In this document: piece by piece, positions 3,073 through 58,461 of the stretch | Numbering within the stretch: the stretch's first letter is position 1 | Layout of the letters: every line of letters begins with the position of its first letter | NCBI GenBank assembly: GCA_944321145.1 | Contig: CALUKF010000005.1 | Location: forward strand, 1-64,000 | Source of the DNA: an uncultured Odoribacter sp. | GTDB lineage: Bacteria; Bacteroidota; Bacteroidia; Bacteroidales; Marinifilaceae | Length of the DNA stretch: 64,000 nucleotides | Direction: 5' to 3' | Translations under genes and position numbers: made by a program | The notes under the pieces: generated by a model | Databases searched by the model: none | Seen by the model: the letters and a program-made list of their open reading frames with translations, nothing else | Told to the model about the DNA's origin: nothing

Positions 3073-3076
3073 CCTT

Positions 3077-4102
3077 TCAATCCATCATCAGGCTCATATA
3101 AGGTCGGATGCCTTGAAAACAGAGCACCTGCCGGGTAAGTTCATCAATCGAAATGCCCTCGGTCGTTTCTTCTGCTCCTTGGACGCATGTACCGTGGGCT
3201 AAAACATAGGTGCCGTTGTTCTCGCTCAGGAGGTCGTCCCTTACCTTGACCGTCCAGCAGAGGTCGGGATGCTGTGCTGCCAGCCGCTCTAAAACCTCCT
3301 TCACCCGTATGAGCCGTGCCATTCCGTACGGCGTTCCTTCCCCTGCCTCCGTGCGATAAAGCACCTTCTTCCCTTTCCACATCTGCGCCGTCTCTTGCAA
3401 CAGAGCCTGCTGCACGCCTTGCGAGTCGCACGCCATTTCCTTAACCCGCACCTGCCTTTCTTCCGGCAGCGCGAAAGCGATGCCTTGGATTTGCTGTTGG
3501 CAACCACGGGCAAGAAATAACTTCCCTCCCGACAAATAGTGTTCTTCAACCACCGCCTGGAAGTCCCTCCGGTCATGCTCTACGAAACACGCCCTCTTCT
3601 CCAACTGTCCCGTGAAATAAGCATGCACCTCCTCCACAGGCGTCTCTTCAATACCGGCATAGGCTGTGACCGCCCCAACCCTCTCGCTCGCCGGAGCATC
3701 CGTCGCCTCCCAAGCTGCATAGAACTGCCGGAACACCGTGCCATACCCCATTCTCCCATAGTAATCAAACAGCCATCCTTCTGCCGGAATCAGGAACGTA
3801 AGCTCAGTCCCCCGCTCATACATCTGCCGGAACCCTTCCTTCAGCAACTCGCTCATGATGCCTCGGTTGCGCGCTTCCCGCCGGGTACAGGCACCCGAAA
3901 TATAGGCAGCATCCAGGCTGCCCCCTTGCCACCTCAGCCGGTAAGGCAACATCAGAGCCGCCGCCGTAGCTTCCCCTCCCGCCTCATACAGCAGCGCATG
4001 CCTGTCGTCATACTTCCGGTCGAAGTAGAAACGGACAAACTCCTCGCTGTCCCCAAAGTTCTCCAGCCAGAGCCGGAAGATGGCATCGCGTTTTGAACTC
4101 AT
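3077..4102 (-). CDS. GNAT family N-acetyltransferase, Eis-like
   Basis: A 341-residue acyltransferase. The N-terminal half has the acetyl-CoA binding loop CTRREARNRGIMSELL (R-x-x-G-x/A motif A of GNAT enzymes) and the beta-strand TFLIPAEGWLFDYYGRMGY; the C-terminal half looks like the second GNAT and sterol-carrier-like parts of Eis-type enzymes. Acceptor substrate unknown. Its ATG overlaps the stop of the upstream DUF2156 gene by four bases (ATGA), so the two are translationally coupled in a minus-strand operon that begins at 6758. The stop codon is four bases from that of the convergent transporter gene. Confidence 0.85.
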   Translation of the reverse strand: MSSKRDAIFRLWLENFGDSEEFVRFYFDRKYDDRHALLYEAGGEATAAALMLPYRLRWQGGSLDAAYISGACTRREARNRGIMSELLKEGFRQMYERGTELTFLIPAEGWLFDYYGRMGYGTVFRQFYAAWEATDAPASERVGAVTAYAGIEETPVEEVHAYFTGQLEKRACFVEHDRRDFQAVVEEHYLSGGKLFLARGCQQQIQGIAFALPEERQVRVKEMACDSQGVQQALLQETAQMWKGKKVLYRTEAGEGTPYGMARLIRVKEVLERLAAQHPDLCWTVKVRDDLLSENNGTYVLAHGTCVQGAEETTEGISIDELTRQVLCFQGIRPYMSLMMD

Positions 4103-5031
4103 ACCGACGGACTGACTGCTTCTGTTTTCATCAATACTTTCTCCGGATTGTAGGACAACTTCGCTTGCCGCAGCCCGGGAATGCCCAAGTCCTCCTCCCG
4201 GTTCACGTGCAGGAACTCCTCCGGCAGGCTTGCAGCAAAGAACTGGTTGATGGCGCTATAGGAGCCGTCCACATGGATATCCGCTTTCTCGAAATGCACC
4301 CCGAACGTATTCCGTCCGATGGGCGCGCCGAACGTGAAAGCCGCCACTTCCCCTGCCACCCGGATAACGCCCCCGCGCAGCCCCAACGCCTCCCAGTGCG
4401 CAAAGGCATGCCTCATCGCCTCCCGTTCGTTCCGGATATTCTCGTCCTCCTCAAATTGATGCCGTTGGCACCACGACGCCTCAAATGCCAGGCAATCCTC
4501 AATGTCGCTCTTCTCCAACTCCTTGTACTCGAAGTCATACTCCCGCCTGAACTTATTCACGTGGTTCCGCTTCGCTTGGTAATGCTTCCCTTTCAGCTCT
4601 GCCAAGTCCTGCCGCCGGTAGATATAATCCGCCAAGTCCCGTTCTTCCGTGCATTGGAAATCTGCCAGTCCCCACTCGCCCCGGTGCCTCTCGATTTCCT
4701 CCGTTTCCCCTCTGAGGCACAGCCGTTCGCCCTGCCTTGCTGCCGTCTCCTTCAGTGCTGCCAGCGTCTTCCGCACAGCCTCTGCCTCCCGCTGTCCGCC
4801 TTCGCCCAGAGGCAGGAAATACACATGCCCCCAACGCGCGTGCGCAAAGCGGACGACCAGCATCCCCTCCACAATCGCATAGCTCGACCCCGTCAGGAAA
4901 TGCCAGCTGCACAGGTTGGCAAACGAGAGGTCGCAATCCTGCGCCCCCGACGGCAGGATAAACCGCTCGGCGATTTCCCTGTCCTCCAAGCCAAAATCCT
5001 TAAACTCCTCCATGTCTTCTGTCATTGCCAT
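4099..5031 (-). CDS. DUF2156 / phosphatidylglycerol lysyltransferase-like domain protein
   Basis: A 310-residue protein fitting DUF2156, the GNAT-fold domain that is also the soluble C-terminal domain of MprF lysyl-lipid synthases. Visible features are the N-terminal DCDLSFANLCSWHF block, the YIYRRQDLAELKGKHYQAKRNHVNKF block near residues 138-163 (the K-x-R-N-H part is typical), and VHFEKADIHVDGSYSAINQFFA near the end. There are no membrane helices, so it is not a full MprF. Overlaps the upstream LysM gene by ten bases and the downstream GNAT gene by four, so the three are one operon. Aminoacyl or acyl transfer is inferred from the fold only. Confidence 0.85.
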   Translation of the reverse strand: MAMTEDMEEFKDFGLEDREIAERFILPSGAQDCDLSFANLCSWHFLTGSSYAIVEGMLVVRFAHARWGHVYFLPLGEGGQREAEAVRKTLAALKETAARQGERLCLRGETEEIERHRGEWGLADFQCTEERDLADYIYRRQDLAELKGKHYQAKRNHVNKFRREYDFEYKELEKSDIEDCLAFEASWCQRHQFEEDENIRNEREAMRHAFAHWEALGLRGGVIRVAGEVAAFTFGAPIGRNTFGVHFEKADIHVDGSYSAINQFFAASLPEEFLHVNREEDLGIPGLRQAKLSYNPEKVLMKTEAVSPSV

Positions 5032-6758
5032 TTTTCGACCTTTACTTCAAAGTCCGAAGTATATTGGATAATGTAAAAAGCGTGGTTCTCCGCGTTCCTG
5101 CCTCTCGGCGCTGTCGCAAAGCGGAACATCGAGCACCCCGTTTCCGCGCCCCCTGCCGGGAGCACCTCCGGCACCTGCCCTTTGTGCGCCGCTGCCAGCT
5201 CCATAAAATACAGCCCCAAGTCAAACGCCCGGAACGCCATCCCCGACGGCTCGCTGTAAAAATACTTGCGGTACTCCTCCGTCAGCCGCTTTCCTGCAGC
5301 CGAAGTATAATCCGTATAGTGGTACGTGAACACCCTCGTGTCCAGCTTGAAATACGTTTCGTGGTCGACCGATGTGAACCGTTGCCAGTCCGGCAGCCCC
5401 ACCACCGAGATGGGATAATCGTCCGCCAACGCCGAGAGCATTGGCAGCACATTGCTCACGTCCGCCTCCTTGTCCGTCGGCAGGATGATGATATTCTCGC
5501 GGTCGGGCACCAGCATCGTCCGCAGCGTGTCCAGCGGCGACCGTTCCATCCCCCACATGAAGATGCGCATCCCCTGCAGCTTTGCGAGGCTGTCCTGTAA
5601 AATCCGCCGTTCCGCGTCCGAAGCCCCCTCATGCCCTGTGCGGATATTCACCAGATTCGCGTCCGCGCTCCGCATCGCGAGCCACCGCACCATCTCGCCC
5701 ACCACCACTTCAAACGACGGGTTCACCTGCACCGCATTCGCATACGCCCCCAGCCCCTCGCCCTGTGACGACAGGGGATAAACCACCGGGATACTCTTGT
5801 CCTGCAGGTTGTCCATCAGTGTCTTATATGTCTGTGCATAGACCGGACCTATCACCAAATCCGGATGCAGCCGGTTCACCTCCGCAGCCACGGCATGCGT
5901 CTTTTGCGTGCTCCGCTCCGTGTCGTACACGTGCAGGCTCACCCGGTATCCCTTCCGCTTCAGGCTGTCCGCCGCCAGCAGCATCCCCTCGTAGAACGCC
6001 ACGAACTGCTCCGTCCTCGGCGTAATCTTCACCTGTTGGAAATCCGGCAGCGAATCCTGGTAGGGCGCCACCTCCTTTGCCAGCAATGGCAGCAGCAACA
6101 CCACCCGCACCGTCGAATCCTCCGCCGCCGTCACCTCCTGTGGCGTCATCACCTCCTCCTGCACCGCCAGCGTGTCTTTCGTGATTGTTGGAACCTCTGC
6201 CGTCACTTCCTCCGCCTGCTTTTCCTCGCTGCCGCCTTCCACTTTCACCTCCGCAGCCTTCACCTCCACCAGCAGTGCCGGGTCAATCTCCTCCAGCGGC
6301 AGCCGCACCACCGCCCCGATTGCCAGCGGCTGGTTCGTCGAATAGTCCGGGTTGTGCTTCAGCAATCGCCGCGGTCGCATCCCGTACCGCCGTGCAATCG
6401 AATAAATCGTCTCTCCCTTCTCCACCCGGTGGTAATAATACTTCCCGTCCTGCTGCACGAACGGCTTCTCCGCCTCCTGGGCTTTCGCCTCCGCCTGCTG
6501 CTCCACAAAAGGGATTTTCAGCACCTCATACAGGCTCAGCGCATTGTCCGCCTTCTCGTTCAACGCCTTCACCTCCTCCACGTCCGCCCCGTAAGCCTTG
6601 CAAATCGAGTAAAGCGTTTGTCCCGCCTCCACCGTGTGCAGGTAATAACTCTTCCCCCGGATGACCACCACGTCCGACGACCGTTCCACCGCCGTCCCCT
6701 GCGCTGTCGCCTCTGCGCACAGCCAGCACAATAAAAACGCTATAATAAATCTCTGCAT
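5022..6758 (-). CDS. Exported protein with two LysM domains and a periplasmic-binding-like domain
   Basis: 578 residues. A signal peptide (MQRFIIAFLLCWLCAEATAQ) is followed by two LysM domains at about 38-85 (HTVEAGQTLYSICKAYG) and 105-150 (HRVEKGETIYSIARRYG), a Glu/Val-rich linker, and from about residue 220 a type-1 periplasmic-binding-protein fold (VRVVLLLPLLAKE, FYEGMLLAADSLKRKG, PDLVIGPVYAQT). LysM binds peptidoglycan, so the protein probably sits on the wall in the periplasm; the C-terminal domain resembles ABC amino-acid-binding proteins and LpoA-like regulators. First gene of the operon with DUF2156 and GNAT genes. The coding strand is strongly G-rich. Confidence 0.88.
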   Translation of the reverse strand: MQRFIIAFLLCWLCAEATAQGTAVERSSDVVVIRGKSYYLHTVEAGQTLYSICKAYGADVEEVKALNEKADNALSLYEVLKIPFVEQQAEAKAQEAEKPFVQQDGKYYYHRVEKGETIYSIARRYGMRPRRLLKHNPDYSTNQPLAIGAVVRLPLEEIDPALLVEVKAAEVKVEGGSEEKQAEEVTAEVPTITKDTLAVQEEVMTPQEVTAAEDSTVRVVLLLPLLAKEVAPYQDSLPDFQQVKITPRTEQFVAFYEGMLLAADSLKRKGYRVSLHVYDTERSTQKTHAVAAEVNRLHPDLVIGPVYAQTYKTLMDNLQDKSIPVVYPLSSQGEGLGAYANAVQVNPSFEVVVGEMVRWLAMRSADANLVNIRTGHEGASDAERRILQDSLAKLQGMRIFMWGMERSPLDTLRTMLVPDRENIIILPTDKEADVSNVLPMLSALADDYPISVVGLPDWQRFTSVDHETYFKLDTRVFTYHYTDYTSAAGKRLTEEYRKYFYSEPSGMAFRAFDLGLYFMELAAAHKGQVPEVLPAGGAETGCSMFRFATAPRGRNAENHAFYIIQYTSDFEVKVEKWQ

Positions 6759-6843
6759 AAATCTTCTATCTTAAGTCAATAACATTTCACGCCTTGATGC
6801 CACAAATTTAGGAATAAAGTATCGATAATTGAAAAAACTCCGC

Positions 6844-6851
6844 TAATTTTG
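6844..6851 (+). promoter_or_regulatory. Probable -7 box for the PASTA-rluA operon
   Basis: TAATTTTG matches the Bacteroidota -7 consensus TAnnTTTG and lies 20 bp before the ATG at 6872. No good -33 TTTG is visible at the usual distance, so confidence is moderate. Confidence 0.5.
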
Positions 6852-6871
6852 CACGCAATATCAGAATAACC

Positions 6872-7693
6872 ATGAAGAACATAGCTCAGAAACTCAAACT
6901 TACCGCCGTCAACCTTCTGATAGCCGCCGCATTAGTCGTCGCTATCGCCGCCGGCGTGCTCCATTGGCTCGACAAGTACACAGCCCACGGCACCTTCATC
7001 GCCGTCCCCGACTTCACCTCATGCACCCCCGAGGAAGCAGCCACCCTTGCCGCTGCCGAAGGGCTTCGCGTCCAGGTTATTGACTCCATTCACGACCGCG
7101 AAGCGCCCCGGGGAGCCGTCGTCAAGCAAAACCCCGCCATCGGCGAGCACGTCAAAGCCGGGCGGCTCATCCACCTCATCATCAATGCCCGTACTTCCGA
7201 GAAAGCCGTGTTCCCCAGCCTCAAGAACACCGCCTACCGCCAGACCCTCCAGACCCTCGAAGCCCGCGGCTTCCGCATTGGGCGCATTGAATACATGCCC
7301 TCCGAGTTCCGCAACCTGGTGCTCCAGCTGAAAACCGGCGGCGAGGAAATCCCCGCAGGCACGCTCCTCCCCAAAGGCACCGTGGTTGACATCGTCCTGG
7401 GTTCCGGCAACGGCTCCACCCTTGCCCCCATCCCTTCCGTCAAGGGCAAAACCCTCGAAGAGGCAGTCGCCCAGCTCCGCAACGCCTATTTTAATATCGG
7501 TACGGTCACTCCCGACACCCTCGTGGAGCCCGGCATCGCCCTCAACAAGGCATTGGTATACCTCCAGCAGCCCTCTGTCGACACCCCCGTCGAGCGCGGT
7601 TCGGACATCCGCCTCTACGTCACCTTCGACCCCCGCAAAGCCGCCATGCCCGATTCCCTCCTCATCACCGATACCCTCACCCTAATCCCTTGA
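6872..7693 (+). CDS. PASTA domain membrane protein
   Basis: 273 residues: a short basic N-terminus, one membrane helix (about 13-33), then three PASTA repeats exposed to the periplasm (about 42-110, 112-180 and 185-255; for example VPDFTSCTPEEAATLAAAEG and IPSVKGKTLEEAVAQLRNA). PASTA domains bind peptidoglycan fragments or beta-lactams in PBPs and Ser/Thr kinases; here there is no kinase or transpeptidase part. Three bases separate it from the next gene, a pairing that is common in Bacteroidales. Codons end in C to an extreme degree, unlike plus-strand genes 2 kb downstream. Confidence 0.9.
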   Translation: MKNIAQKLKLTAVNLLIAAALVVAIAAGVLHWLDKYTAHGTFIAVPDFTSCTPEEAATLAAAEGLRVQVIDSIHDREAPRGAVVKQNPAIGEHVKAGRLIHLIINARTSEKAVFPSLKNTAYRQTLQTLEARGFRIGRIEYMPSEFRNLVLQLKTGGEEIPAGTLLPKGTVVDIVLGSGNGSTLAPIPSVKGKTLEEAVAQLRNAYFNIGTVTPDTLVEPGIALNKALVYLQQPSVDTPVERGSDIRLYVTFDPRKAAMPDSLLITDTLTLIP

Positions 7694-7696
7694 CCC

Positions 7697-8764
7697 ATGG
7701 CTGAATACCTCGACGACACCGAAGACCTCTTCGACGACACCCCCGATGCCGCCCCCGCCCTCTACGAGCACCACCGCATCGAAGTCGAGCCGGGGCAATC
7801 CCCCCTCCGCATCGACAAATTCCTCCTCACCCGCCTCCCCAACGCCTCCCGCACCAAGATACAGGAAGCCGCCGACGCAGGCAACATCCTCGTCAACGGC
7901 TCCCCCGTCCGTTCCAGCTACAAAGTGCGCCCCCGCGACCTCGTCACCCTCGTCATGGCATACCCCCGCCGCGAATACCGCATCGTCCCCGAAGACATCC
8001 CCCTCGACATCCTCTACGAGGACGACTCCCTGCTCGTCATCAACAAGCCAGCCGGCATGGTCGTCCACCCCGCCTTCGGGCATTGGTCGGGCACCCTCGT
8101 CCATGCCCTCGCATGGCACCTCCGCGGCAACCCCCTCTTCGACTCCGGCGACCCCCGTCCCGGGCTCGTCCACCGCATCGACAAAGACACCTCCGGGCTC
8201 CTCGTCATCGCCAAGACCGAGCAGGCGAAAGCCCACCTCTCCGCCCAATTCTTCCACAAAACCACCTCCCGCCGCTACATCGCCGTATGCTGGGGCAACC
8301 TCGACGCCGACGCCGGCACCATCACCGGGCACATCGGGCGCAACCTCCGCGACCGCAAAGTCATGGCATGTTTCCCCGACGGCTCCCACGGCAAGCCCGC
8401 CGTCACCCACTGGCGCGTCCTCGAACGCCTCGCCTACGTCAACGTCGTCGAGTGCATCCTCGAAACCGGGCGCACCCACCAAATCCGCGCCCATTTCCAG
8501 CACATCCGCCACCCCCTCTTCAACGACGCCGACTACGGCGGCGACCAAATCCTCAAAGGCACCACCTTCGCCAAATACCGCCAATTCGTCTCCAACTGCT
8601 TTGCCGCCTGCCCCCGCCAGGCGCTCCACGCCAAGACCCTCGCCTTCGACCACCCCCTCACCGGCGAGCGCCTCTCCTTCGACTCCCCCCTCCCCCCCGA
8701 CATGCGCGACCTCATCGCCCGCTGGCGCGAATACACCGCCTCCCGATTAACGACGAACGACTAA
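7697..8764 (+). CDS. RluA/RluD family 23S rRNA pseudouridine synthase
   Basis: 355 residues. An N-terminal S4 RNA-binding domain (about 35-85, LRIDKFLLTRLPNASRTKIQ) is followed by the pseudouridine synthase domain with the catalytic motif GLVHRIDKDTSGLLVIAKT, whose first Asp is the nucleophile, and with INKPAGMVVHP and ETGRTHQIRAHF. This is the arrangement of RluD, which modifies helix 69 of 23S rRNA; target specificity is inferred. The last residues (SRLTTND and stop) are encoded by the heptamer repeat at 8747-8774, so the natural 3' end seems to have been replaced by repeat DNA. Codons are strongly C-ending. Confidence 0.9.
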   Translation: MAEYLDDTEDLFDDTPDAAPALYEHHRIEVEPGQSPLRIDKFLLTRLPNASRTKIQEAADAGNILVNGSPVRSSYKVRPRDLVTLVMAYPRREYRIVPEDIPLDILYEDDSLLVINKPAGMVVHPAFGHWSGTLVHALAWHLRGNPLFDSGDPRPGLVHRIDKDTSGLLVIAKTEQAKAHLSAQFFHKTTSRRYIAVCWGNLDADAGTITGHIGRNLRDRKVMACFPDGSHGKPAVTHWRVLERLAYVNVVECILETGRTHQIRAHFQHIRHPLFNDADYGGDQILKGTTFAKYRQFVSNCFAACPRQALHAKTLAFDHPLTGERLSFDSPLPPDMRDLIARWREYTASRLTTND

Positions 8765-8774
8765 CGATGAACGA
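8747..8774 (+). repeat. Heptamer tandem repeat, left copy
   Basis: Four tandem 7-bp units of the form nnAACGA (TTAACGA, CGAACGA, CTAACGA, TGAACGA). They supply the last codons and the stop of the pseudouridine synthase gene. A second array of the same heptamers lies at 9238-9277. Confidence 0.75.
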
Positions 8775-8778
8775 AAAA

Positions 8779-8803
8779 GAGGAGTATGATGGCATTTTGA
8801 CAC
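8779..8803 (+). repeat. Solitary end copy of the 30.1-kb inverted-repeat element
   Basis: The 25 bases beginning GAGGAGTATGATG and ending GCATTTTGACAC match, with one missing base, the inner side of the left arm (reverse complement) of the element at 30079-30247. No partner arm is seen here, so it looks like a remnant. Confidence 0.7.
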
Positions 8804-8881
8804 AGTTCCATCAAAGAAAACGGAAAAAATACCTCCAAAAACAGGGGAAAATACCCCCAAAATTGGAAAAATCAGCCTAAT

Positions 8882-8938
8882 ATTTGTATTCCCTCCTTTC
8901 TCCCTCATGTTCAGCACCTTTCCCCGTTCTGTCAGGCT
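8882..8938 (+). other. Pyrimidine-rich left arm of repeat element A
   Basis: The top strand here is mostly C and T (runs such as CCCTCCTTTCTCCCTC and CCTTTCCCCGTTCT). It directly abuts the 11-bp-period core. Similar pyrimidine-rich stretches lie left of the cores at 30.4 and 58.3 kb. No gene is visible. Confidence 0.55.
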
Positions 8939-9004
8939 ATCATCTACGAGTCATCTCCGATTCACTTACGAGTCATTAACGTCTAAAAGTAGTAGATGAC
9001 TCGC
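8939..9004 (+). repeat. Six-unit 11-bp-period core, element A
   Basis: Cut every 11 bases from 8939, the first four units agree on nTCAyyTACGA (ATCATCTACGA, GTCATCTCCGA, TTCACTTACGA, GTCATTAACGT). The sixth unit, AGATGACTCGC, is close to the reverse complement of ACGAGTCATCT found at 8946-8956, so the core can also fold back on itself. Flanked by a pyrimidine-rich left arm and a purine-rich right arm like the cores at 30399 and 58312. Confidence 0.72.
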
Positions 9005-9038
9005 TACAGAAAACAAGGATAAACATTCTTGCCTGTCC

Positions 9039-9209
9039 GAGGGGAGGGGAAGGGGATGGGAAACAGCAGGGAAACGAGGGAGAAGAGACGGAAAAGGAAG
9101 GCAAAGGAAAGCAAAGAAAAGAGTGGGGGGGGAGAGATGGAAAAGAAAGAAAAGACCAAGAAAGGCAGAGGAAACGGAGGGAAAAATGGTGGGGGAAGGG
9201 GCGGAAGGC
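9039..9209 (+). other. Long purine-rich tract, right arm of element A
   Basis: About 170 bases of the top strand are almost only A and G, including GGGGAGGGGAAGGGG and an eight-G run. No convincing coding frame: all frames give lysine, arginine, glutamate and glycine strings. Such tracts can form triplex or quadruplex structures. The similar stretches after the other two 11-bp cores are shorter. Confidence 0.7.
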
Positions 9210-9237
9210 GTCGCCCACGGTGCTGCTTTACCCCGGT

Positions 9238-9277
9238 GATTAATCGATGAACGAGTAACGATGAATGATTAACGAGG
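9238..9277 (+). repeat. Heptamer tandem repeat, right copy
   Basis: Heptamers TGAACGA, GTAACGA, TGAATGA and TTAACGA, preceded by a TTAATCGA variant, in the same orientation as the array at 8747-8774. The two arrays bracket about 460 bp that hold the 11-bp core and its two arms. Confidence 0.7.
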
Positions 9278-9312
9278 GGGGAGGAGCGAGGCGGGGGCGG
9301 GGAGGAGGGGAT

Positions 9313-9348
9313 GAAAAAAGGGGCGCATCTGCGGATGCGCCCCTTTTG
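9313..9348 (-). terminator. Intrinsic terminator of the tRNA operon
   Basis: GGGGCGCATC pairs with GATGCGCCCC around a 4-nt loop. On the minus strand the stem is followed by TTTTTT, 10 bp after the last tRNA. It could also stop plus-strand transcripts because of the TTTT on the other side. Confidence 0.9.
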
Positions 9349-9358
9349 TGCCTTCAGG

Positions 9359-9442
9359 TGCCCAGGACAAGACTCGAACTTGCACAGCCGAACGGCCACT
9401 ACCACCTCAAAGTAGCGTGTATACCAATTTCACCACCTGGGC
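9359..9442 (-). tRNA. tRNA-Leu (anticodon GAG)
   Basis: On the minus strand the acceptor arms GCCCAGG and CCTGGGC pair. The anticodon stem CTACT/GGTAG carries a loop TTGAGGT giving anticodon GAG (reads CUC and CUU). A long variable arm (TGGCCGTTCGGCTG) and the T-arm AAGTTCGAGTCTTG are present. CCA is not encoded. Third gene of a Gln-Leu-Leu operon. Confidence 0.95.
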
Positions 9443-9468
9443 TAATGAAAAAGAACTCCTTGAATGGG

Positions 9469-9552
9469 TGCCCAAGATAGGACTCGAACCTACACAGCCG
9501 AACGGCTACTAGTACCTGAAACTAGCGTGTATACCAATTTCACCACTTGGGC
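9469..9552 (-). tRNA. tRNA-Leu (anticodon CAG)
   Basis: Acceptor arms GCCCAAG and CTTGGGC pair on the minus strand. Anticodon stem CTAGT/ACTAG with loop TTCAGGT gives anticodon CAG (reads CUG). It has the class II variable arm of leucine tRNAs. It differs from the neighbouring Leu gene mainly by paired stem changes, which suggests an old tandem duplication. Confidence 0.95.
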
Positions 9553-9563
9553 TTGTCGTGATG

Positions 9564-9634
9564 TTGTCCCACCAGGACTCGAACCTGGACTGACAGAACC
9601 AAAATCTGCTGTGCTGCCATTACACAATGGGACA
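9564..9634 (-). tRNA. tRNA-Gln (anticodon TTG)
   Basis: Acceptor arms TGTCCCA and TGGGACA pair on the minus strand. The anticodon loop TTTTGGT gives TTG (reads CAA, and CAG by wobble). First gene of the tRNA operon, 28 bp downstream of a clear promoter -7 box. Confidence 0.95.
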
Positions 9635-9661
9635 AGTTGCTGGTGCCATCATTGACGGGCG

Positions 9662-9692
9662 CAAAGGTAATGCCTTTTTTGGAATCTGCAAA
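9662..9692 (-). promoter_or_regulatory. Promoter of the tRNA operon
   Basis: On the minus strand TTTG (9689-9692) and TACCTTTG (9662-9669) are 19 bp apart, an exact match to the Bacteroidota housekeeping promoter TTTG-N19-TAnnTTTG. Confidence 0.82.
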
Positions 9693-9907
9693 GAAAAAGC
9701 GGAAAAAATGTTTTAGGAAATATTAGTCGGGGGGATTTTGGGTTTTTTCGGGGAAATTGTGTACTTTCGCCCTGCCGTTTGCGCTGTGCGCGGCAGCGCG
9801 GGGAAGGGGGCGCGGAACGGAGGCGTGGCGAAGGGGCGCGGAGCAGGGCGGGCGGCAGGCTTAGTGAATTGTATTTTAACAGGATAACAGAGAAAATTTT
9901 TCTACGC

Positions 9908-12900
9908 ATGAAGATTTACACCATTAAAGACCATCCGAATTGGAGTTTTAAGTTGATTAACCGGGTGACCGGCTGGGTGGTTTTCCTTGTTGCTACTTTA
10001 ACGTATATGCTCACGGCGGAGCCTACGGCGAGCTTGTGGGACTGCGGGGAGTTTATCACGACGTCAGTGGGATTGCAGGTGGGTCATCCTCCCGGGGCGC
10101 CGTTGTTTATGATTATCTCGCGGCTGTTCGCGATATTGGCGCCGTCGGCGGATACGCAGGCGCTGATGATTAATTATATGTCGGGGCTGTGCTCGGGGCT
10201 GACGGTGATGTTCCTGTTCTGGTCGATTGTGCACCTGGCGCGGAAGGTTGTGCTGCGTGGCGGGGAGGAGATGACGGCGGGGCAGTTCTTCGCGATTCTG
10301 GGCGCCGCGCTGGTGGGGGCACTGGCGTATGCGTTCTCGGACACGTTCTGGTTCTCGGCGGTGGAGGGGGAGGTTTATGCGATGTCGTCGCTGTTCACGG
10401 CGGTGGTGTTCTGGGCTATCCTGAAGTGGGAGAATGTGGCGTTCGAGCCGTATGCGAACCGGTGGCTGGTGCTGATAGCTTACCTGATGGGGTTGTCCAT
10501 CGGGGTGCATTTGCTGAACCTGTTGGCGATACCGGCAATCGTGTTTGTCTATTATTTCAAGAAGTATAAGCCGACGGTGCGGGGCGTGGTGAAGACGGGG
10601 ATTATCGCGGTGCTGATTCTGGGAGTGGTGAATTTTGGCATCATTCCGGGCGTGGTGAAGGTGGCATGCTGGTTTGAGCTGCTGTTCACGAACGGGATGG
10701 GGCTGCCGTTCAATACGGGGGTTGTGGTGTATGTGCTGCTGATTATCGGCTTGCTGACGTGGGGCATCCGTTATACGCTGAAGAAGGGGATGGCGATTTG
10801 GAATACGATTCTGACGTGTTTCATGGTCATCCTGCTGGGGTATTCGTCTTATGCGATGGTGGTCATCCGCTCGCTGAGCGACCCGGTGATTGACGAGAAC
10901 AGCCCGGACAATGTGTTTGCGTTGCTGTCGTACTTGAACCGCGAGCAGTATGGCGATTCGCCGCTGCTGTACGGTCCTTATTATAACGCGCCGATCCTGG
11001 ATTACAAGGACGGGGCGCCGATTTACTACCAGAACAAGGAGACGGGCGTGTATGACATTATCGGGTATAAGCAGGAGTATGAGTATGACAAGCGGTTCTG
11101 CACGGTGTTCCCGCGCATGCACAACGGGTCGCGGTCGTATTATCCGCAGCTGTACCAGACTTGGGGCGGCAAGAGCAACGGGGCGACGTATAACGTGAAC
11201 GGGGAGATGCGCACTTGCCCGAGCTTCGGGAACAATATGCGCTACTTCTTCAATTACCAGCTGGGGCACATGTACTGGCGGTATTTCATGTGGAATTTCT
11301 CCGGGCGGCAGAATGACATCCAGGGGAACGGGGACATCATGCACGGGAATTGGATTACGGGCATCAAGTTCCTGGACGAGATGCGCCTGGGGAACCAGGA
11401 CGAGCTGCCGGACACGCTGAAGGCGGAGAAGGCGCACAATAAGTATTATATGCTGCCGTTCATCCTGGGGATTATCGGGATGTTCTACCAGTACCGGAAA
11501 GGGCGCGAGGGGAAGCAGGACTTCTGGGTGGTGATGATGCTCTTCTTCCTGACGGGGTTGGCAATCATCCTCTATACGAACCAGCCTCCGATGGAGCCGC
11601 GCGAACGGGATTATGCGTTGGCGGGGTCGTTCTATGCCTATGCGATTTGGATAGGGCTGGGCGTGCTGTCGCTGTGGGAGTTCCTGTGCAAGAAGGTGAA
11701 GAACGCGAAGCCGGCGACACAGGCGGGGCTTGCTGCGGGGGTGACGGTGGTGTGCCTGTTTGCGGTGCCGGTGAATATGGCAGCGCAGAACTGGGACGAC
11801 CACGACCGTTCCGGACGCTATGCGACGCTGGCGCACGCGAAGAATTACCTGAACTCGTGCGAGGAGAACGCGATTCTCTTCACGTACGGGGATAATGATA
11901 CGTTCCCGTTGTGGTACGCGCAGGAGGTGGAAGGCATCCGGCGGGATGTGCGGATTGTGAACCTGAGCCTGCTGCTGGGGTCGTGGTATATCGACCAGTT
12001 GCGGCGCGCGGCTTACGAGACGCCGGCAGTGCCCATCTCGTTCACGCACGAGCAGTACCGCGAGAGCAAGCGGGACATTATGCCGATTGTCGACCGGTAT
12101 CCGCAGGCGAATGTGAAGGAGGTGATGGAGTTCATCGCGAGCGACCTGCCGCAGACGAAGCTGACGGGCTACGGGGAGCCGATGGATTATGTGCCGACGA
12201 GGAAGATTATCATCCCGGTGGATTCCGCGAAGGTGGTGGCAAACGGGGTGGTACGCCCGGAGGATGCCGATAAAATCGTGAAGCAGCTGGAGATTACGCT
12301 GAAGGGCAATTCGCTGAACAAGTCGCAGCTGATGGTGCTCGACATCATCGCAAATGCGGACTGGACACGCCCCGTGTACTTCGGCATCGGGATGGGGACG
12401 GACGCTTATATGGGCTTCGAGAAGTATTTCCAGCTGGAGGGCGCGGCTTACCGCTTGGTGCCCATCGAGACGAAGGATGCGGAGTACTTTGACTACGGGC
12501 GCATTGACAGCGATATTCTCTACGACAACCTGATGAACAAGTTCGAGTGGGGCAATATCAAAGACCCGAAGGTGAACATTGATTACTTCCACGACAACAC
12601 GATTGCCGTGATGAAGTACCGCAATACGTTCCTGCGGCTGGCAGAGACGCTGTACACGGAAGGAAAGGACGAGCAGGCGATTGCCGCCCTGGACAAGTGC
12701 ATGGAGGAGCTGCCGCTCAACCAGGTGCCGGTAGACAACACGCTGCTGAATTACATCCCGCTGTACTACCACTTGGGGGCAACGGACAAGGCAAATGCGC
12801 TGTTGATGGAGCTGGCGGAGAACAATTACCAGATGTTGCGCTATACGCACTCCCTCTCGCCGAAGTTCGCGCGGATGGGAAGCGTGCAGCAGGAGGAGAA

Positions 12901-13090
12901 TATCAGCATCCAGGTTATCCAGATGCTGGTCGGCATGGCTTACGAGGCAGGACAGGATGAGGTGGCAGAGCAAATCAAGCGCAAGGTGGAGAGCATTTAC
13001 AATCCGGTGCTGCTCCAGCCCGAACGGATGCCGGCACAGCCGGCAGGCGGCGCGGCAGGACAGGCGCAGGACAGCAATGAGAGTAAATAA
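9908..13090 (+). CDS. DUF2723 membrane protein, probable lipid-linked-sugar glycosyltransferase
   Basis: 1060 residues. An N-terminal polytopic membrane part (about 10-620, ten or more helices) carries the DUF2723 signature EPTASLWDCGEFITTSVGLQ, with Asp and Glu in the first loop as in GT-C enzymes, and QVGHPPGAPLF; a soluble C-terminal part begins around residue 630 and has helical repeats near the end. DUF2723 proteins are placed among GT-C-fold transferases that use polyprenyl-phosphate sugars. The start is the ATG at 9908, preceded by a G-rich 130-nt leader (TACTTTCG near 9755 may be the -7 box). Codons are extremely G-ending. Confidence 0.88.
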   Translation: MKIYTIKDHPNWSFKLINRVTGWVVFLVATLTYMLTAEPTASLWDCGEFITTSVGLQVGHPPGAPLFMIISRLFAILAPSADTQALMINYMSGLCSGLTVMFLFWSIVHLARKVVLRGGEEMTAGQFFAILGAALVGALAYAFSDTFWFSAVEGEVYAMSSLFTAVVFWAILKWENVAFEPYANRWLVLIAYLMGLSIGVHLLNLLAIPAIVFVYYFKKYKPTVRGVVKTGIIAVLILGVVNFGIIPGVVKVACWFELLFTNGMGLPFNTGVVVYVLLIIGLLTWGIRYTLKKGMAIWNTILTCFMVILLGYSSYAMVVIRSLSDPVIDENSPDNVFALLSYLNREQYGDSPLLYGPYYNAPILDYKDGAPIYYQNKETGVYDIIGYKQEYEYDKRFCTVFPRMHNGSRSYYPQLYQTWGGKSNGATYNVNGEMRTCPSFGNNMRYFFNYQLGHMYWRYFMWNFSGRQNDIQGNGDIMHGNWITGIKFLDEMRLGNQDELPDTLKAEKAHNKYYMLPFILGIIGMFYQYRKGREGKQDFWVVMMLFFLTGLAIILYTNQPPMEPRERDYALAGSFYAYAIWIGLGVLSLWEFLCKKVKNAKPATQAGLAAGVTVVCLFAVPVNMAAQNWDDHDRSGRYATLAHAKNYLNSCEENAILFTYGDNDTFPLWYAQEVEGIRRDVRIVNLSLLLGSWYIDQLRRAAYETPAVPISFTHEQYRESKRDIMPIVDRYPQANVKEVMEFIASDLPQTKLTGYGEPMDYVPTRKIIIPVDSAKVVANGVVRPEDADKIVKQLEITLKGNSLNKSQLMVLDIIANADWTRPVYFGIGMGTDAYMGFEKYFQLEGAAYRLVPIETKDAEYFDYGRIDSDILYDNLMNKFEWGNIKDPKVNIDYFHDNTIAVMKYRNTFLRLAETLYTEGKDEQAIAALDKCMEELPLNQVPVDNTLLNYIPLYYHLGATDKANALLMELAENNYQMLRYTHSLSPKFARMGSVQQEENISIQVIQMLVGMAYEAGQDEVAEQIKRKVESIYNPVLLQPERMPAQPAGGAAGQAQDSNESK

Positions 13091-13118
13091 CATGAATGAT
13101 AAACATTAATCACAACGT

Positions 13119-14232
13119 ATGATTACAACAGATCAACTGAAGGCAGTTGAAGAGCGCAGCGGCGCCCTGAGGAGGTATCTTTGACATCGATCGGAAGAAG
13201 ATCGAATTGGAGGAAATAGAAATGCGCACGCAGGCACCTGATTTTTGGAGCGACGCGAAGAATGCGGAGAAAATCATGAAGCAGGTGCGCGAGTTGAAAG
13301 GCTGGATTGAAGGCTGCGAGGAGGTGAGCCGGGCGGTGGACGACCTGAATGTGCTGTTCGACTTTGCCAAGGAAGGTGAGGCGACGGAAGAGGAGGTGGA
13401 CGCGCAGTATGCGAAGACGCTGGAGGCGGTGGAGAGCCTCGAATTGAAGAACATGCTCCAAGGGGAGGCGGACGCGATGAGTTGCGTGCTGAAAATCAAC
13501 TCCGGCGCAGGCGGCACGGAAAGCCAGGACTGGGCGTCGATGCTCATGCGGATGTATATGCGGTGGGCGGAGGCGCACAATTATAAGTTGTCTGTCGCCA
13601 ACCTGCAGGACGGGGATGAGGCAGGCATCAAGACCGTGACGATGAACATTGAAGGCGATTTCGCTTACGGGTATCTGAAGGGGGAGAACGGGGTGCACCG
13701 GTTGGTGCGCGTGTCGCCCTACAATGCCCAGGGGAAGCGGATGACTTCGTTCGCGTCGGTGTTCGTGACACCGCTGGTGGACGATACCATCGAGATTGTC
13801 ATCAACCAGGCAGCCATCAGTTGGGATACTTTCCGTTCGGGCGGTGCCGGCGGGCAGAATGTGAACAAGGTGGAGTCGGGCGTGCGCCTGCGCTACCAGT
13901 ACAAAGACCCTTACACCGGCGAGGAGGAGGAAATCCTGATTGAGAACACGGAGACGCGCGACCAGCCTAAGAACAAGGAGAATGCCCTGCGGCAGTTGCG
14001 TTCCATCCTGTACGAGAAAGAACTGGAGCACCGCATGGCTGAGCAGCAGAAAGTGGAGAGCAACAAGAAGAAAATCGAATGGGGTTCGCAAATCCGCAGT
14101 TACGTGTTTGACGACCGGCGGGTGAAAGACCACCGCACCAATTATCAAACCTCTGACGTAACGGGGGTCATGGACGGAAAAATCGACGCTTTTATCAAAG
14201 CCTACTTAATGGAATTCGGCGGGGTGGAGTAA
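13119..14232 (+). CDS. prfB: Peptide chain release factor 2 (programmed +1 frameshift)
   Basis: The reading frame from ATG 13119 runs 21 codons to an in-frame TGA at 13182-13184; skipping the T at 13182 continues the protein to 14232, giving 370 residues, the normal RF2 length. The catalytic loop GGAGGQNVNKVESG is intact. The stop-recognition tripeptide region reads VSPYNAQGKRMTSF, so SPY in place of the common SPF. RF2 ends translation at UGA and UAA, and low RF2 raises frameshifting at the TGA, so the gene regulates itself. Joined frame: 13119-13181 plus 13183-14232. Confidence 0.95.
13168..13185 (+). promoter_or_regulatory. prfB programmed +1 frameshift site
   Basis: AGGAGG, a three-base spacer, CTT and TGAC (13170-13185) reproduce the classic RF2 site: an internal Shine-Dalgarno, a slippery CUU codon and UGA followed by C, a context that weakens termination. 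Confidence 0.95.
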
Positions 14233-14249
14233 TCCTCCCCGCTTTTTTA
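14219..14249 (+). terminator. Intrinsic terminator of prfB
   Basis: GCGGGG pairs with CCCCGC, extended by GGA/TCC past one mismatch, followed by TTTTTT. The stem overlaps the last codons of prfB. Confidence 0.8.
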
Positions 14250-14282
14250 TGCTTGTCTTGACAGGAAAGAGAAGGGATGGGC

Positions 14283-14318
14283 AAAAAACAGGGCGGAAGC
14301 TGATGCCTCCGCCCTGTT
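14283..14318 (-). terminator. Intrinsic terminator of the TPR gene
   Basis: On the minus strand CAGGGCGGA pairs with TCCGCCCTG and is followed by TTTTTT, 25 bp after the TPR gene stop. Confidence 0.85.
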
Positions 14319-14342
14319 CCGCATTGTATATGAAAACTTGGT

Positions 14343-15029
14343 TTATTTTGCCTTCAGTTGTGCGCGTTCGATGTATTTCTCGATGTCCCGGGCTTCGGAA
14401 GAGTTGGGATATTCGCGATTCACGCGCTCATAGCTTTTCAGGGCTCCTGCATAGTCGCCTGCCTGTTCCAATGCCAGGCCTTCTTTCATCAGGAACATGG
14501 GGGTTGAAAAGTCGTTGGCTTTCGAAGCGGCAGCCTTTTGGTAGTGGCTGGCTGCTTGCTTGTAGTCGCCTAATTGCATGTAGGCGTCGCCGATGTTGGC
14601 GATTGCCATGTTGGAAAGCAACAAGTCGTCTGAGGAAAATGCTTTCAGGTATTTGATGGCATTTTCGTATTCTCCGATGTACAAATAGGAGAGTCCTGCA
14701 TAAAGGTTGGCAAGGTTGCCGCTGGGGGTAGAGCCGTATTTGTCGATGATTTCGATGAAACCCAATACATTGCCGTCTCCATTGAGAGCGAGGCGGAAGG
14801 AATCCCTTTCAAAATAGCTCTGTGCTCCGTATATTTGATTGGCGGCTTCTGTAGCCTTGGGCTCGGAGATGAAACGGTTGTACCCGAAATAGGCAGCCAC
14901 GATAACTATGATGCCAATGATGACGTTAACAATCATCTTTTGGTTTTTCTCTACAAACTGTTCGCCACTGGTGAGGGCGCCTTCAAGTTGTTCAAAACCG
15001 TCTTCTTTCTTTTTCTGTTCTTTTGCCAT
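14343..15029 (-). CDS. Membrane-anchored tetratricopeptide repeat protein
   Basis: 228 residues: a charged cytoplasmic start, one membrane helix (about 33-53, VNVIIGIIVIVAAYFGYN), then TPR units (for example NLANLYAGLSYLYIGEYENAIKYL and AIANIGDAYMQLGDYKQAASHYQ) in the periplasm. The layout is that of YfgM-like proteins, which work with the PpiD foldase at the Sec translocon; that link is inferred from architecture, though a PpiD-like gene does lie 5 kb away. Divergent from recF; CAAAGATA at 15064-15071 gives a minus-strand -7 box TATCTTTG. Confidence 0.85.
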   Translation of the reverse strand: MAKEQKKKEDGFEQLEGALTSGEQFVEKNQKMIVNVIIGIIVIVAAYFGYNRFISEPKATEAANQIYGAQSYFERDSFRLALNGDGNVLGFIEIIDKYGSTPSGNLANLYAGLSYLYIGEYENAIKYLKAFSSDDLLLSNMAIANIGDAYMQLGDYKQAASHYQKAAASKANDFSTPMFLMKEGLALEQAGDYAGALKSYERVNREYPNSSEARDIEKYIERAQLKAK

Positions 15030-15182
15030 ATTTTCGTTTGTTTGAATGCTTTTTTACAACGCGCAAAGATAGTGCTTTTCGTTGAATATTGAAATGCTTG
15101 CTGCTTTTTTTTGCTTTCTTTTTCAAGGCTGTCGTGAAAAAGCGTATTTTTGTAGCGGATAAACGGAAAGCCGATATAGCGT

Positions 15183-16289
15183 ATGATATTAAAAGAACTG
15201 CATATAGTCAATTTCAAGAATATTGCGGAAGCCTCGTTGGATTTGTCGGAGGGGTTTAATTGTTTTGTTGGCAGGAATGGGGTGGGGAAGACGAATGTGT
15301 TGGATGCCGTTTATCATCTTTCGATGTGCAAGAGTTTCTTCGGATTGTCTGACCAGCAGAATATCCGCCATGGGGAGGCTTTTTTTATGGTTCAGGGAGT
15401 GTATGCCCGGGAGGGAGGGGATGAGGTGGAGGTCTGCTATGCGATGAAGCGGGGGCAGAAGAAGGTCTTGAAGAAAAACGGGAAGGTGTATTCCCGCCTC
15501 TCGGAACACGTCGGGCTTTTGCCCTTGGTGATGATAGCTCCGGAGGATGCGCTTTTGATTGATGGGGGAAGCGAGGAACGCCGCCGTCTGATGGATGGCA
15601 TCATTAGCCAGTACAATCGGGAGTATCTTTATCAGTTGATTCGTTATAATCGGGTGTTGGCGCAGCGGAATGCGTTGTTGCGTGGGGCGGAGGGCAAGCG
15701 GCTGGATGGGGAAATGCTGGAGGCATGGGACGGGCAGTTGGCAGAGAGCGGGGAGGAAATTATGCGGGAGCGGAGGCGTTTTTTAGAGGAATTTACGGGC
15801 ATGTTCCGCCGCTATTATGAAGCATTGTCGTTGTCGCGTGAGGAGGTGGAATTGGCTTACAAGCCATCCGTGGGGACGGGTAGCTTGTTAGAAGCTTTCC
15901 GGGCGTCTTGGGAGCGAGACCGGGTGTTGATGTATACGACAACGGGCATTCATCGGGATGATTTGTCTTTTTCTATTGGGGCTTATCCGATTAAGAAATT
16001 AGGGTCGCAGGGACAGAAAAAGACTTTCCTCGTGGCTTTGAAGCTGGCGCAGTATGCTTGGCTTGCACGAATGACAGGGGTGAAGCCCCTGTTGCTTTTG
16101 GATGATATATTTGACAAACTGGATGCAGACCGGGTGGCGCAAATCGTGCAGGTGGTGGGGCAAGAGGCTTTTGGTCAAGTGTTTATTACGGATACCCACC
16201 GAGAGCGGTTGGATGAAATCTTGCGCTTGCAAGAATCTCCCTGCCGTTTCTTTACTGTGGAAGGCGGGGAGGTACGTGTGGAGCAATGA
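15183..16289 (+). CDS. recF: DNA replication and repair protein RecF
   Basis: 368 residues, normal for RecF. The Walker A motif is GRNGVGKTNVLDAV near residue 30, the ABC signature region is KKLGSQGQKKTFLVALKLAQ, and Walker B is PLLLLDDIFDKLD near residue 305. RecF is a cytoplasmic SMC-like ATPase that binds single/double-strand junctions with RecR and loads RecA at gaps. The -7 box TATTTTTG lies at 15145-15152, giving a short leader before ATG 15183. Confidence 0.96.
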   Translation: MILKELHIVNFKNIAEASLDLSEGFNCFVGRNGVGKTNVLDAVYHLSMCKSFFGLSDQQNIRHGEAFFMVQGVYAREGGDEVEVCYAMKRGQKKVLKKNGKVYSRLSEHVGLLPLVMIAPEDALLIDGGSEERRRLMDGIISQYNREYLYQLIRYNRVLAQRNALLRGAEGKRLDGEMLEAWDGQLAESGEEIMRERRRFLEEFTGMFRRYYEALSLSREEVELAYKPSVGTGSLLEAFRASWERDRVLMYTTTGIHRDDLSFSIGAYPIKKLGSQGQKKTFLVALKLAQYAWLARMTGVKPLLLLDDIFDKLDADRVAQIVQVVGQEAFGQVFITDTHRERLDEILRLQESPCRFFTVEGGEVRVEQ

Positions 16290-26213: not shown

Positions 26214-26326
26214 AGCTGTAAAATTTGCTTTGTGTAATTTGACCTCAAAATTATAGCTTTTTTGGGAGATTGTGTCTCTTGTGCGAGGATTTTTTCGTAT
26301 GCGGGGGAAGTTTCTAGAAAATTATT

Positions 26327-26356
26327 TTTGGAGGAAAGAAATAATGTGTATTTTTG
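26327..26356 (+). promoter_or_regulatory. Promoter of the riboflavin operon
   Basis: TTTG (26327-26330), 18 bp, TATTTTTG (26349-26356). Transcription would begin near 26362, about 20 bases before the FMN riboswitch. Confidence 0.72.
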
Positions 26357-26379
26357 GGGCGTTGTTTTAGAAATGATTT

Positions 26380-26491
26380 CTTCAGGGCAGGGTGGAAATC
26401 CCTACCGGCGGTGATAGTCCGCGACTCCCTGGATGGGGACTGAATCGGTGGAATTCCGATACCGACGGTGAGAGTCCGGATGGAAGAAGAG
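26380..26491 (+). promoter_or_regulatory. FMN riboswitch (RFN element)
   Basis: All hallmark blocks of the RFN aptamer are present in order: CAGGGCAGGGTG, AATCCCTACCGGCGGTGAT, AGTCCGCGACTCC, GGTGGAATTCCGATACCGAC and GGTGAGAGTCCGGATGGAAG, closed by the TCTTC/GAAGA P1 stem. It binds flavin mononucleotide and switches off riboflavin synthesis genes. It is followed by an intrinsic terminator and ribD. Confidence 0.97.
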
Positions 26492-26534
26492 ACTGGACAA
26501 TGGCTTGGTTTTTCACTGTGTCTTTGTTGGTATG

Positions 26535-26558
26535 CCCTGAAGCGATTCAGGGTTTTTT
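26535..26558 (+). terminator. Riboswitch expression-platform terminator
   Basis: CCCTGA pairs with TCAGGG around AGCGAT and is followed by TTTTTT, ending four bases before the ribD ATG. The 3' arm CAGGG is also the only purine-rich stretch near the start, so the same hairpin could hide the ribosome site. Confidence 0.88.
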
Positions 26559-26561
26559 ATT

Positions 26562-30078: not shown

Positions 30079-30247
30079 AGGGGCAGTGTCAAAATGCTCA
30101 TCATACTCCTCCGTCTGCTTCGCAGCCACCTCCTCTATCTTAGAGGAGGAGCTTGAATACCAGACATTTCAAACTCTCCCTCTAAGATAGAGGGAGTACC
30201 CCGAAGGGGGGAGGGAGTATGGAAAAAGGCATTTTGACACTGCCCCT
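30079..30247 (+). repeat. 169-bp inverted-repeat (MITE-like) element
   Basis: Nineteen bases at each end (30079-30097 starting AGGGGCAGTGTC, and 30229-30247) are perfect inverted copies. Inside them the arms continue imperfectly (CATACTCC on one side, GGAGTATG on the other) and each arm contains a palindrome around CTCTATCTTAGAG or CTCTAAGATAGAG. A T-rich run follows (CTCTTTTTG), so it may also end the riboflavin operon transcript. No coding capacity. A single end copy lies at 8779-8803. Confidence 0.82.
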
Positions 30248-30296
30248 CTTTTTGTGCCCTGTTGTTTCGTAACTTTCCCTTTTCCCGTCTCCTGCC
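30242..30296 (+). other. Pyrimidine-rich left arm of repeat element B
   Basis: The top strand is mostly C and T (CCCCTCTTTTTGTGCCC, CTTTCCCTTTTCCCGTCTCC). About 100 bp of mixed then AT-rich DNA, including a small ACCGTTCCGGCTAATAACCGGT hairpin, separates it from the 11-bp core. No gene seen. Confidence 0.5.
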
Positions 30297-30398
30297 GAAT
30301 TTCACACAAGGGGCTCCCAAACGGCTCCCTTTGGGCACCGTTCCGGCTAATAACCGGTATTTTATAATTAAATAATGATAAATATAAACCTTATTATC

Positions 30399-30464
30399 CC
30401 TAATCGTGATTAGTCTTATATAAGACTTATATTAGACTTGATATACGGTTGTATTAGCGTATAG
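30399..30464 (+). repeat. Six-unit 11-bp-period core, element B
   Basis: Cut every 11 bases from 30399 the units are CCTAATCGTGA, TTAGTCTTATA, TAAGACTTATA, TTAGACTTGAT, ATACGGTTGTA and TTAGCGTATAG; the consensus is TTAGACTTATA. By my count 51 of 66 positions match the core at 58312-58377 unit for unit without a gap. A purine-rich arm follows. It lies between ribH and the sigma factor gene. Confidence 0.8.
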
Positions 30465-30466
30465 TG

Positions 30467-30533
30467 CCGGAAAGGAGGTGGAAGACAGGGAGTTGGGAGG
30501 AGTGAGGGGTGGGAGGAAAGGAGGGGTGGAAAT
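30467..30533 (+). other. Purine-rich right arm of element B
   Basis: The top strand is nearly all A and G for about 65 bases (GGAAAGGAGGTGGAAGACAGGG, GGGAGGAGTGAGGGGTGGGAGG in separate runs). It comes two bases after the 11-bp core and about 80 bp before the sigma factor ATG. Not coding. Confidence 0.6.
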
Positions 30534-30613
30534 TTTTTGTGTTAAAATGGTAATTTTGCTCACCCCTTTTGGGTACTTTTGGTGCTATAGTGACGTAAAC
30601 GGATTTATGAATC

Positions 30614-58262: not shown

Positions 58263-58311
58263 ATTACCATGAATTTTTAATAAATAAACACTATATCATT
58301 CCATGATTATC

Positions 58312-58377
58312 GCTAATCGAAATTACACTTATATTAGAGTTACATTAGACTTAATATAGTGTTGAATTAGTGTAATG
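58312..58377 (+). repeat. Six-unit 11-bp-period core, element C
   Basis: Cut every 11 bases from 58312 the units are GCTAATCGAAA, TTACACTTATA, TTAGAGTTACA, TTAGACTTAAT, ATAGTGTTGAA and TTAGTGTAATG. They line up one to one, without gaps, with the units at 30399-30464. Both cores follow an AT-rich lead-in ending in ATTATC. The purine-rich right arm runs to about 58461. Confidence 0.8.
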
Positions 58378-58389
58378 CGCTGGATGTGA

Positions 58390-58461
58390 ACCGAAAGGGA
58401 AGGTGATGGAGGCAGGGTGGCAGGCAGGGATTTTTCAGGGGAATTTTGCGGGAGGGAATGT
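58390..58461 (+). other. Purine-rich right arm of element C
   Basis: The top strand is rich in A and G (GAAAGGGAAGGTGATGGAGG, CAGGGTGGCAGGCAGGGA, GCGGGAGGGAATG). It is less pure than the arms of elements A and B. No coding frame. Confidence 0.5.

Follow-up and report, generated by a model that had tools for sequence, protein, structure and literature searches.

The window analyzed here, a 64,000-nucleotide stretch from an uncultured Odoribacter sp., carries two collinear 66-bp sequences at 30.4 and 58.3 kb, and these raise the question of whether they are copies of one element and, if so, of what kind. An earlier note, made from the letters alone, had claimed that 30399 to 30464 and 58312 to 58377 agree without gaps at 51 of 66 positions, and this count proved exact (8, 9, 8, 10, 8, and 8 matches per unit), as did the claimed period of 11 bp. 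The second-best 66-mer across the whole window, on both strands, reached 32, and the best score in 1,000 dinucleotide shuffles of the 58.3-kb neighborhood was 35, ruling out chance similarity. Assembly duplication of one locus was also ruled out, as 15 of the 66 positions and the flanking genes differ. Just 2 of the 720 permutations of unit order reached 51; thus, the collinearity is real and extends beyond a common period, which supports the view that the conserved unit order reflects a single element and not tandem expansions that arose separately.

Four copies of a two-armed element

Searching the window's own genome (G000) identified two more collinear copies, on contigs C56 and C60. The first was recovered by plain BLAST with a single window copy and is therefore independent of the profile. 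In a four-sequence profile search of the genome, the four copies scored 56 to 64 bits and everything else ≤ about 18 bits. The array is indeed a single element, as had been proposed, but the 66 bp represent just one arm of a larger, two-armed structure. Similarly, the "degenerate first unit" (CTAATCG) is present in both window copies but is actually a palindromic center, CTAATCG..GATTAG, which reads CTAATCG-NN-ATTAG across the ungapped four-copy alignment. What had been missed is that a second, inverted arm exists, that the flanks are polar, and that a genome-wide class, described below, surrounds the family. The parts of these four copies, termed family 1, are as follows.

30399 to 30464, plus strand: conserved 66-bp arm of copy C5a, matching 58312 to 58377 at 51 of 66 positions (profile match, 63.9 bits); units after the center, ATTAGTCTTAT / ATAAGACTTAT / ATTAGACTTGA / TATACGGTTGT / ATTAGCGTATA
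30400 to 30413, no strand assigned: palindromic center of C5a, CTAATCG-TG-ATTAG, with CTAATC and ATTA invariant in all four copies
30336 to 30399, minus strand: weaker inverted arm of C5a, with leftward 11-bp steps beginning ATTAGGGATAA / TAAGGTTTATA / TTTATCATTAT
30465 to 30535, plus strand: purine/G-rich right flank of C5a, the left flank being C rich (GC skew, −0.28 left and +0.71 right of the center)
58312 to 58377, plus strand: conserved 66-bp arm of copy C5b (profile match, 63.6 bits)
58275 to 58312, minus strand: inverted left arm of C5b (inverted repeat 58281 to 58296 and 58354 to 58369, 88%; period-11 z, 5.7)
58378 to 58433, plus strand: purine-rich right flank of C5b (GC skew, −0.58 left and +0.55 right)
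G000 contig C56, 15952 to 16017, minus strand: family 1 copy C56 (BLAST; E value, 2e−4)
G000 contig C60, 3003 to 3068, minus strand: family 1 copy C60 (motif search)

Inverted-repeat arms were detected in C5a, with a period-11 window starting at 30284 (z, 5.1), and reading of the sequence placed CCGG at the end of both arms. The clearest inverted arm was that of C60, which proceeds outwards in 11-bp steps (ATTAGAGTTGA / TTATGTGTTTA / TTATGTTTTAT / TTAATCAAAAA). Beyond the arms, the outer regions of family 1 are C rich on the left and G rich on the right. The exact family 1 pattern had no match among one genome each for 84,980 species (own genome excluded), and a related center pattern was absent from viral contigs. 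The element is thus a single species-restricted family.

C5a lies beside ribH and an ECF sigma factor gene, while the neighbors of C5b encode a glycosyltransferase and a Fic protein. Commonly regulated genes were rejected as an explanation, since no neighboring function is common to the arrays. Orthology at ribH was rejected, as synteny is not preserved. At C5a there was no terminator-like site, and the single promoter-like match (10 of 12 positions) was within chance expectation. Between ribH and C5a sits a ∼165-bp MITE-like element (30082 to 30246) with 17-bp inverted ends (GGGGCAGTGTCAAAATG / CATTTTGACACTGCCCC); an end resembling that of this element occurs at 8791 to 8803, beside the GAGTC array listed below.

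A genome-wide class with an 11-bp step

To find arrays, sequence was compared with itself at lags of k, 2k, and 3k. In an unbiased 400 kb of G000, 20 period-11 arrays were found, compared with 0 to 1 at each of eight other periods; extrapolated to the whole genome, this gives about 150 arrays. Across 437 kb of chosen stretches there were 33 windows at k = 11 and 0 to 3 at periods 8, 10, 13, 14, 16, and 17; 7-bp repeats were also seen in these stretches. Motif pairs accumulated at spacings of 11 and 22, not 23, and the 11-bp step was held over >10 units. The arrays are phased and two-armed, about 100 to 250 bp in size, and their reverse-complement matches share a single register modulo 11 (mean z, 3.4, versus about 0 at 10, 12, and 13). 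Unit sequences are unrelated between families (for example, ATTAGACTTAT, ACCTATTNNNN, TACCACATCAC, CACCTGCAACT, CCTGAATTGAA, TTCGATTNNNN, CGAGTCATCTN, and CGGTACTCCTC). Family 1 is part of a large class of intergenic elements, apparently not described before, that occurs in gut bacteria of the Odoribacter type, and what defines this class is the strict 11-base spacing outwards in both directions from a palindromic center, not the letters. The earlier note knew of no Bacteroidota element with a name and such a form; none was found in Rfam, and searches of the open-access literature did not bring up palindromic arrays phased at 11 bp in this phylum. Because catalogs of intergenic repeats usually rely on sequence similarity, they would overlook a class whose members have nothing but an 11-bp step and inverted symmetry in common.

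Weak profile matches of family 1 led to a second family, the largest of the class. Its element is ∼240 bp long and is present in about 21 copies, most of which are 81 to 97% identical to the query copy. Its layout is an overall inverted repeat of layered 11-mers, with GC-rich units outermost, followed by GTTACACTTNN, then ACCTATTNNNN innermost, and CCTATTCCAATATAATAAGAATAGG at the center. One arm and the center are nearly invariant while the opposite arm drifts, an asymmetry also seen in family 1. No sharp ends could be identified in family 2; similarity fades over ∼30 bp at each end with no fixed end motif. By the usual criteria for MITEs, family 2 is multicopy and short (under ∼1 kb), and the class is noncoding and intergenic; as for terminal inverted repeats, the whole element is an inverted repeat, while similarity fades at its ends. 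One family 2 element (L134, contig C27 of G000) is split near its center by an insertion of ∼12.8 kb (about 2300 to 15190), one end of which adjoins a serine recombinase-like start (MKAAVYLRVSTQQQ), and about 7 bp (TTATAAT) is present at both junctions.

A further family is represented within the window.

8890 to 9060, no strand assigned: GAGTC-family array, TACGAGTCATC / TCCGATTCACT / TACGAGTCATT, inverted GATGACTCG (period-11 z, 6.5)

This array, C rich at its left end and G rich at its right end, is one of three collinear copies over about 170 bp (the window, L127, and L211). The CTGTT/AACAG arrays at L126, L210, and L220 have a common 5- to 6-bp motif at 11-bp spacing with differing spacers, and motif pairs are in excess at a spacing of 11. 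Entire unit layers change together along an arm. The array at L116 (10450 to 10560; GTTTCTGTTTC / GAAACAGAAAG) has a very strong fold (z, −11.6); farther out, CAATCTATGTACAGACCGGCACTTT and AAAGGTGCCGGTCTGTACATAGATTG match each other.

Using our own gene calls, 37 of the 39 placed arrays were in intergenic DNA, which makes up 15% of the sequence. Gene pairs around the arrays were tandem, divergent, or convergent in 19, 14, and 4 cases, following the background of 151, 68, and 23, and with no gene-context preference a promoter or terminator role was rejected. A switch from C rich on the left to G rich on the right (skew, −0.23 and +0.24) was found in 34 of the 39 arrays and in every gene context, and was absent from array-free gaps. 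The 74 neighboring proteins had no common function (the most common family, sigma-70, had five members), and no transposase family stood out among them.

Distribution across species

Density varied within Odoribacter: one period-11 window was identified in 260 kb of G002, and none in 160 kb of G004 or 200 kb of G007. Four genomes of g3, the genus of G016 and G019, yielded 11 windows in 440 kb, and other genera of the bacterial family yielded one weak match in 420 kb. A family homologous to family 2 is carried by G001, taken as Candidatus Odoribacter faecigallinarum from a pattern match in named genomes, and G019, from another genus, has a family 2-like layout with different letters. Comparison of G014 with G016 at ∼90% identity gave no exact insertion ends. 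Stretches L152 and L154 of G016 contained several 7-bp-period arrays (12 windows in 100 kb with z ≥ 4.5), so that this genus shows another kind of minisatellite beside its 11-bp arrays.

Presence and absence of arrays could be followed between species at orthologous gaps, one of them in the window.

26214 to 26561, no strand assigned: array-free intergenic region with an FMN riboswitch; the orthologous gap in G001 (L077) does hold an array

The flanks of this filled and empty pair were too diverged for the ends to be fixed. The riboswitch itself (26374 to 26495) is followed after a few kilobases by ribBA and ribH, which end just before C5a. Upstream of polA, an array is present in G000 and absent from G001, and the gene further upstream also differs. 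At L096 and L079, homologous arrays occupy one position across species. Upstream of a dnaK-like gene, both G000 and G001 have arrays, 23 and 22 nucleotides after a common CTTGTT, but the units differ (AGTTGAACCTG versus AGATGATAAGG) and no register was clearly best; the gap also exists in four further genomes of Odoribacter, where it has no array. This is one instance, and as arrays occur in roughly 15% of longer gaps, it may be coincidence.

Possible mobile elements or host sites, and related systems

The explanation tentatively favored here is that the arrays are dispersed MITE- or foldback-like nonautonomous elements, with phased arms that are candidate binding sites of a cooperative protein. 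Each consists of a short palindromic center and two outward arms in strict 11-bp steps, AT rich near the center in the families seen in detail, with flanks that are G/purine rich on the outward-reading strand. A protein would assemble cooperatively on the arms, about one subunit per turn, in both directions from the center; candidates are a trans-supplied recombinase or transposase and a host DNA-organizing protein that recombinases exploit. Both family 1 and family 2 keep the center and one arm constant while the other arm drifts. Mobility is supported by the dispersed collinear copies of family 1 (four), family 2 (about 21), and the GAGTC family (three), by the specificity for period 11 and the inverted symmetry at modulus 11, by presence and absence between species and the variation in density within the genus, and by the skew switch in every gene context together with foldback potential and the lack of a common neighbor type; intergenic placement blind to gene orientation is as for insertions tolerated only between genes. 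Counting against it, neither sharp ends nor a target site duplication was found, plasmid and phage collections contained no relatives, and the 74 array-neighboring proteins did not point to a cognate transposase or binding protein. Many families with a common architecture and no common sequence are also unlike classical MITEs, the position common to L096 and L079 counts against mobility, and free insertion accounts less well than a hotspot or replacement in place for arrays of different families at nearly the same dnaK-like spot. Face-specific conservation within units is also weak (lag-22 correlation z, 1.3; lag 16 to 17 z, −2 to −3).

The earlier note suggested that the 11-base period presents the same helical face six times, and the exact step is supported. 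At 10.5 bp per turn of B-DNA, however, the face drifts by ∼0.5 bp per unit, or ∼100° over six units, and would be constant only if the DNA were underwound or wrapped. The accompanying idea of a cooperative DNA-binding protein also needs amending, as a single protein with a single specificity cannot cover a class with many unrelated unit sequences. Overall, the note's interpretation is partly supported, with cooperative binding and bending remaining proposals.

The main rival to mobile elements, a possibility of some weight though a less likely one, is that the arrays are host-function sites kept in place, either operators or nucleoid-organizing sites. A cooperative protein family of fast-changing specificity would form a filament outwards from the dyad, one subunit per 11-bp turn, with spacing and symmetry under selection and the letters turning over. 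Exact spacing does persist where letters do not in the CTGTT/AACAG set, the same dnaK-like site holds different units in two species, whole unit layers shift together along an arm, and BldC on its 9-bp repeats (PMC5859096) provides a precedent for head-to-tail multimers that bind direct repeats. Against this, placement is blind to gene orientation and neighbor function, the near-identical dispersed copies of family 2 look copied, and there is no known protein; the sampled stretches of two congeners are array free, so a host function would be dispensable within the genus. Motif sharing without collinearity in the CTGTT arrays and unit replacement at one site favor host arrays, while copy-like dispersal and indifference to genes favor mobility. 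A doubtful further proposal would have chromosomal sites defined by geometry and not by sequence, a palindromic dyad with two outward arms of exact 11-bp step, read through architecture-dependent recognition or by a rapidly diversifying protein family. At a given chromosomal position, one species could then have an entirely different set of units from another, with phase and polarity unchanged. If true, this would be a bacterial parallel to fast-evolving satellites or PRDM9-type recognition.

It is unlikely that the arrays are a functionless by-product of repair or copying, arising from any seed by hairpin template switching or templated addition of 11-nucleotide repeats and surviving between genes. 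The strict 11-nucleotide step, the inverted symmetry, the confinement to intergenic DNA, and an architecture that is constant though units are unrelated between families would all be expected, but local generation does not yield collinear family copies at unrelated places, and family 2 keeps one arm while the other drifts. Least probable is an RNA element, such as a transcribed hairpin, terminator, or regulator, for which 11 bp would match the pitch of A-form RNA. Arrays do fold better than shuffles (mean z, −3.3, versus −1.0 for controls; 14 of 20 below −2), as inverted arms necessarily pair, but of the four family 1 copies, C56 folds no better than shuffles and C5b folds just slightly better than the average control. 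A conserved RNA hairpin was dismissed because compensatory change is hardly seen in 16 copies of family 2 (2 of 30 pairs; covariation term, −0.54). The terminator-free C5a and the lack of preference for gene ends also argue against an RNA element, and a known RNA family was rejected, since no array had an Rfam match.

The arrays are best placed among the dispersed intergenic repeats, although there is a genuine possibility that they are something more. One gut-bacterial genome has roughly 150 such sites, and whatever sets their strict 11-bp count would be a novel machine for recombination or copying or else a novel means of decorating chromosomes. Arrays are present in some Odoribacter species and not in the samples of others, so both ideas are testable by strain comparison.

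Among known systems, the eukaryotic foldback transposable elements have long inverted arms of short tandem subrepeats in layered modules. The arrays resemble them in having inverted arms of layered tandem subrepeats and differ in that foldback elements are eukaryotic, kilobase sized, and of other subrepeat lengths; to our knowledge, no foldback-type elements have been described in bacteria. Direct repeats of about one turn also occur in ParR-parC, BldC, and PhoB/OmpR-type sites, and those in parC of plasmid R1 are 11 bp. BldC protomers load head to tail on 9-bp repeats (PMC5859096). However, ParR-parC- and BldC-type sites belong to one locus or regulon with one consensus, whereas the arrays occupy about 150 chromosomal sites with two inverted arms and many unrelated units. 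The enterobacterial REP, BIME, and ERIC sequences are likewise high-copy, lineage-restricted, intergenic imperfect palindromes but are defined by sequence and have no 11-bp phasing. REPs are tagged sequences of 20 to 40 bp (PMC3733652) that have been connected with RAYT transposases (PMC2817692); membership in REP/BIME was rejected, as the arrays are phased, two-armed, and about 100 to 250 bp. The nearest described relative is the BrickBuilt MITE of Porphyromonas gingivalis, also in the Bacteroidales, with about 20 dispersed, strictly intergenic, noncoding, and species-restricted copies containing tandem minisatellite units within a larger repeat (PMC4596501). BrickBuilt has a 23-nucleotide direct repeat between a leader and a tail, short terminal inverted repeats of known sequence, and one unit family, in place of two inverted phased arms (PMC4596501). 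With a period of 11 rather than a 23-nucleotide unit and a different architecture, the arrays fall outside BrickBuilt.
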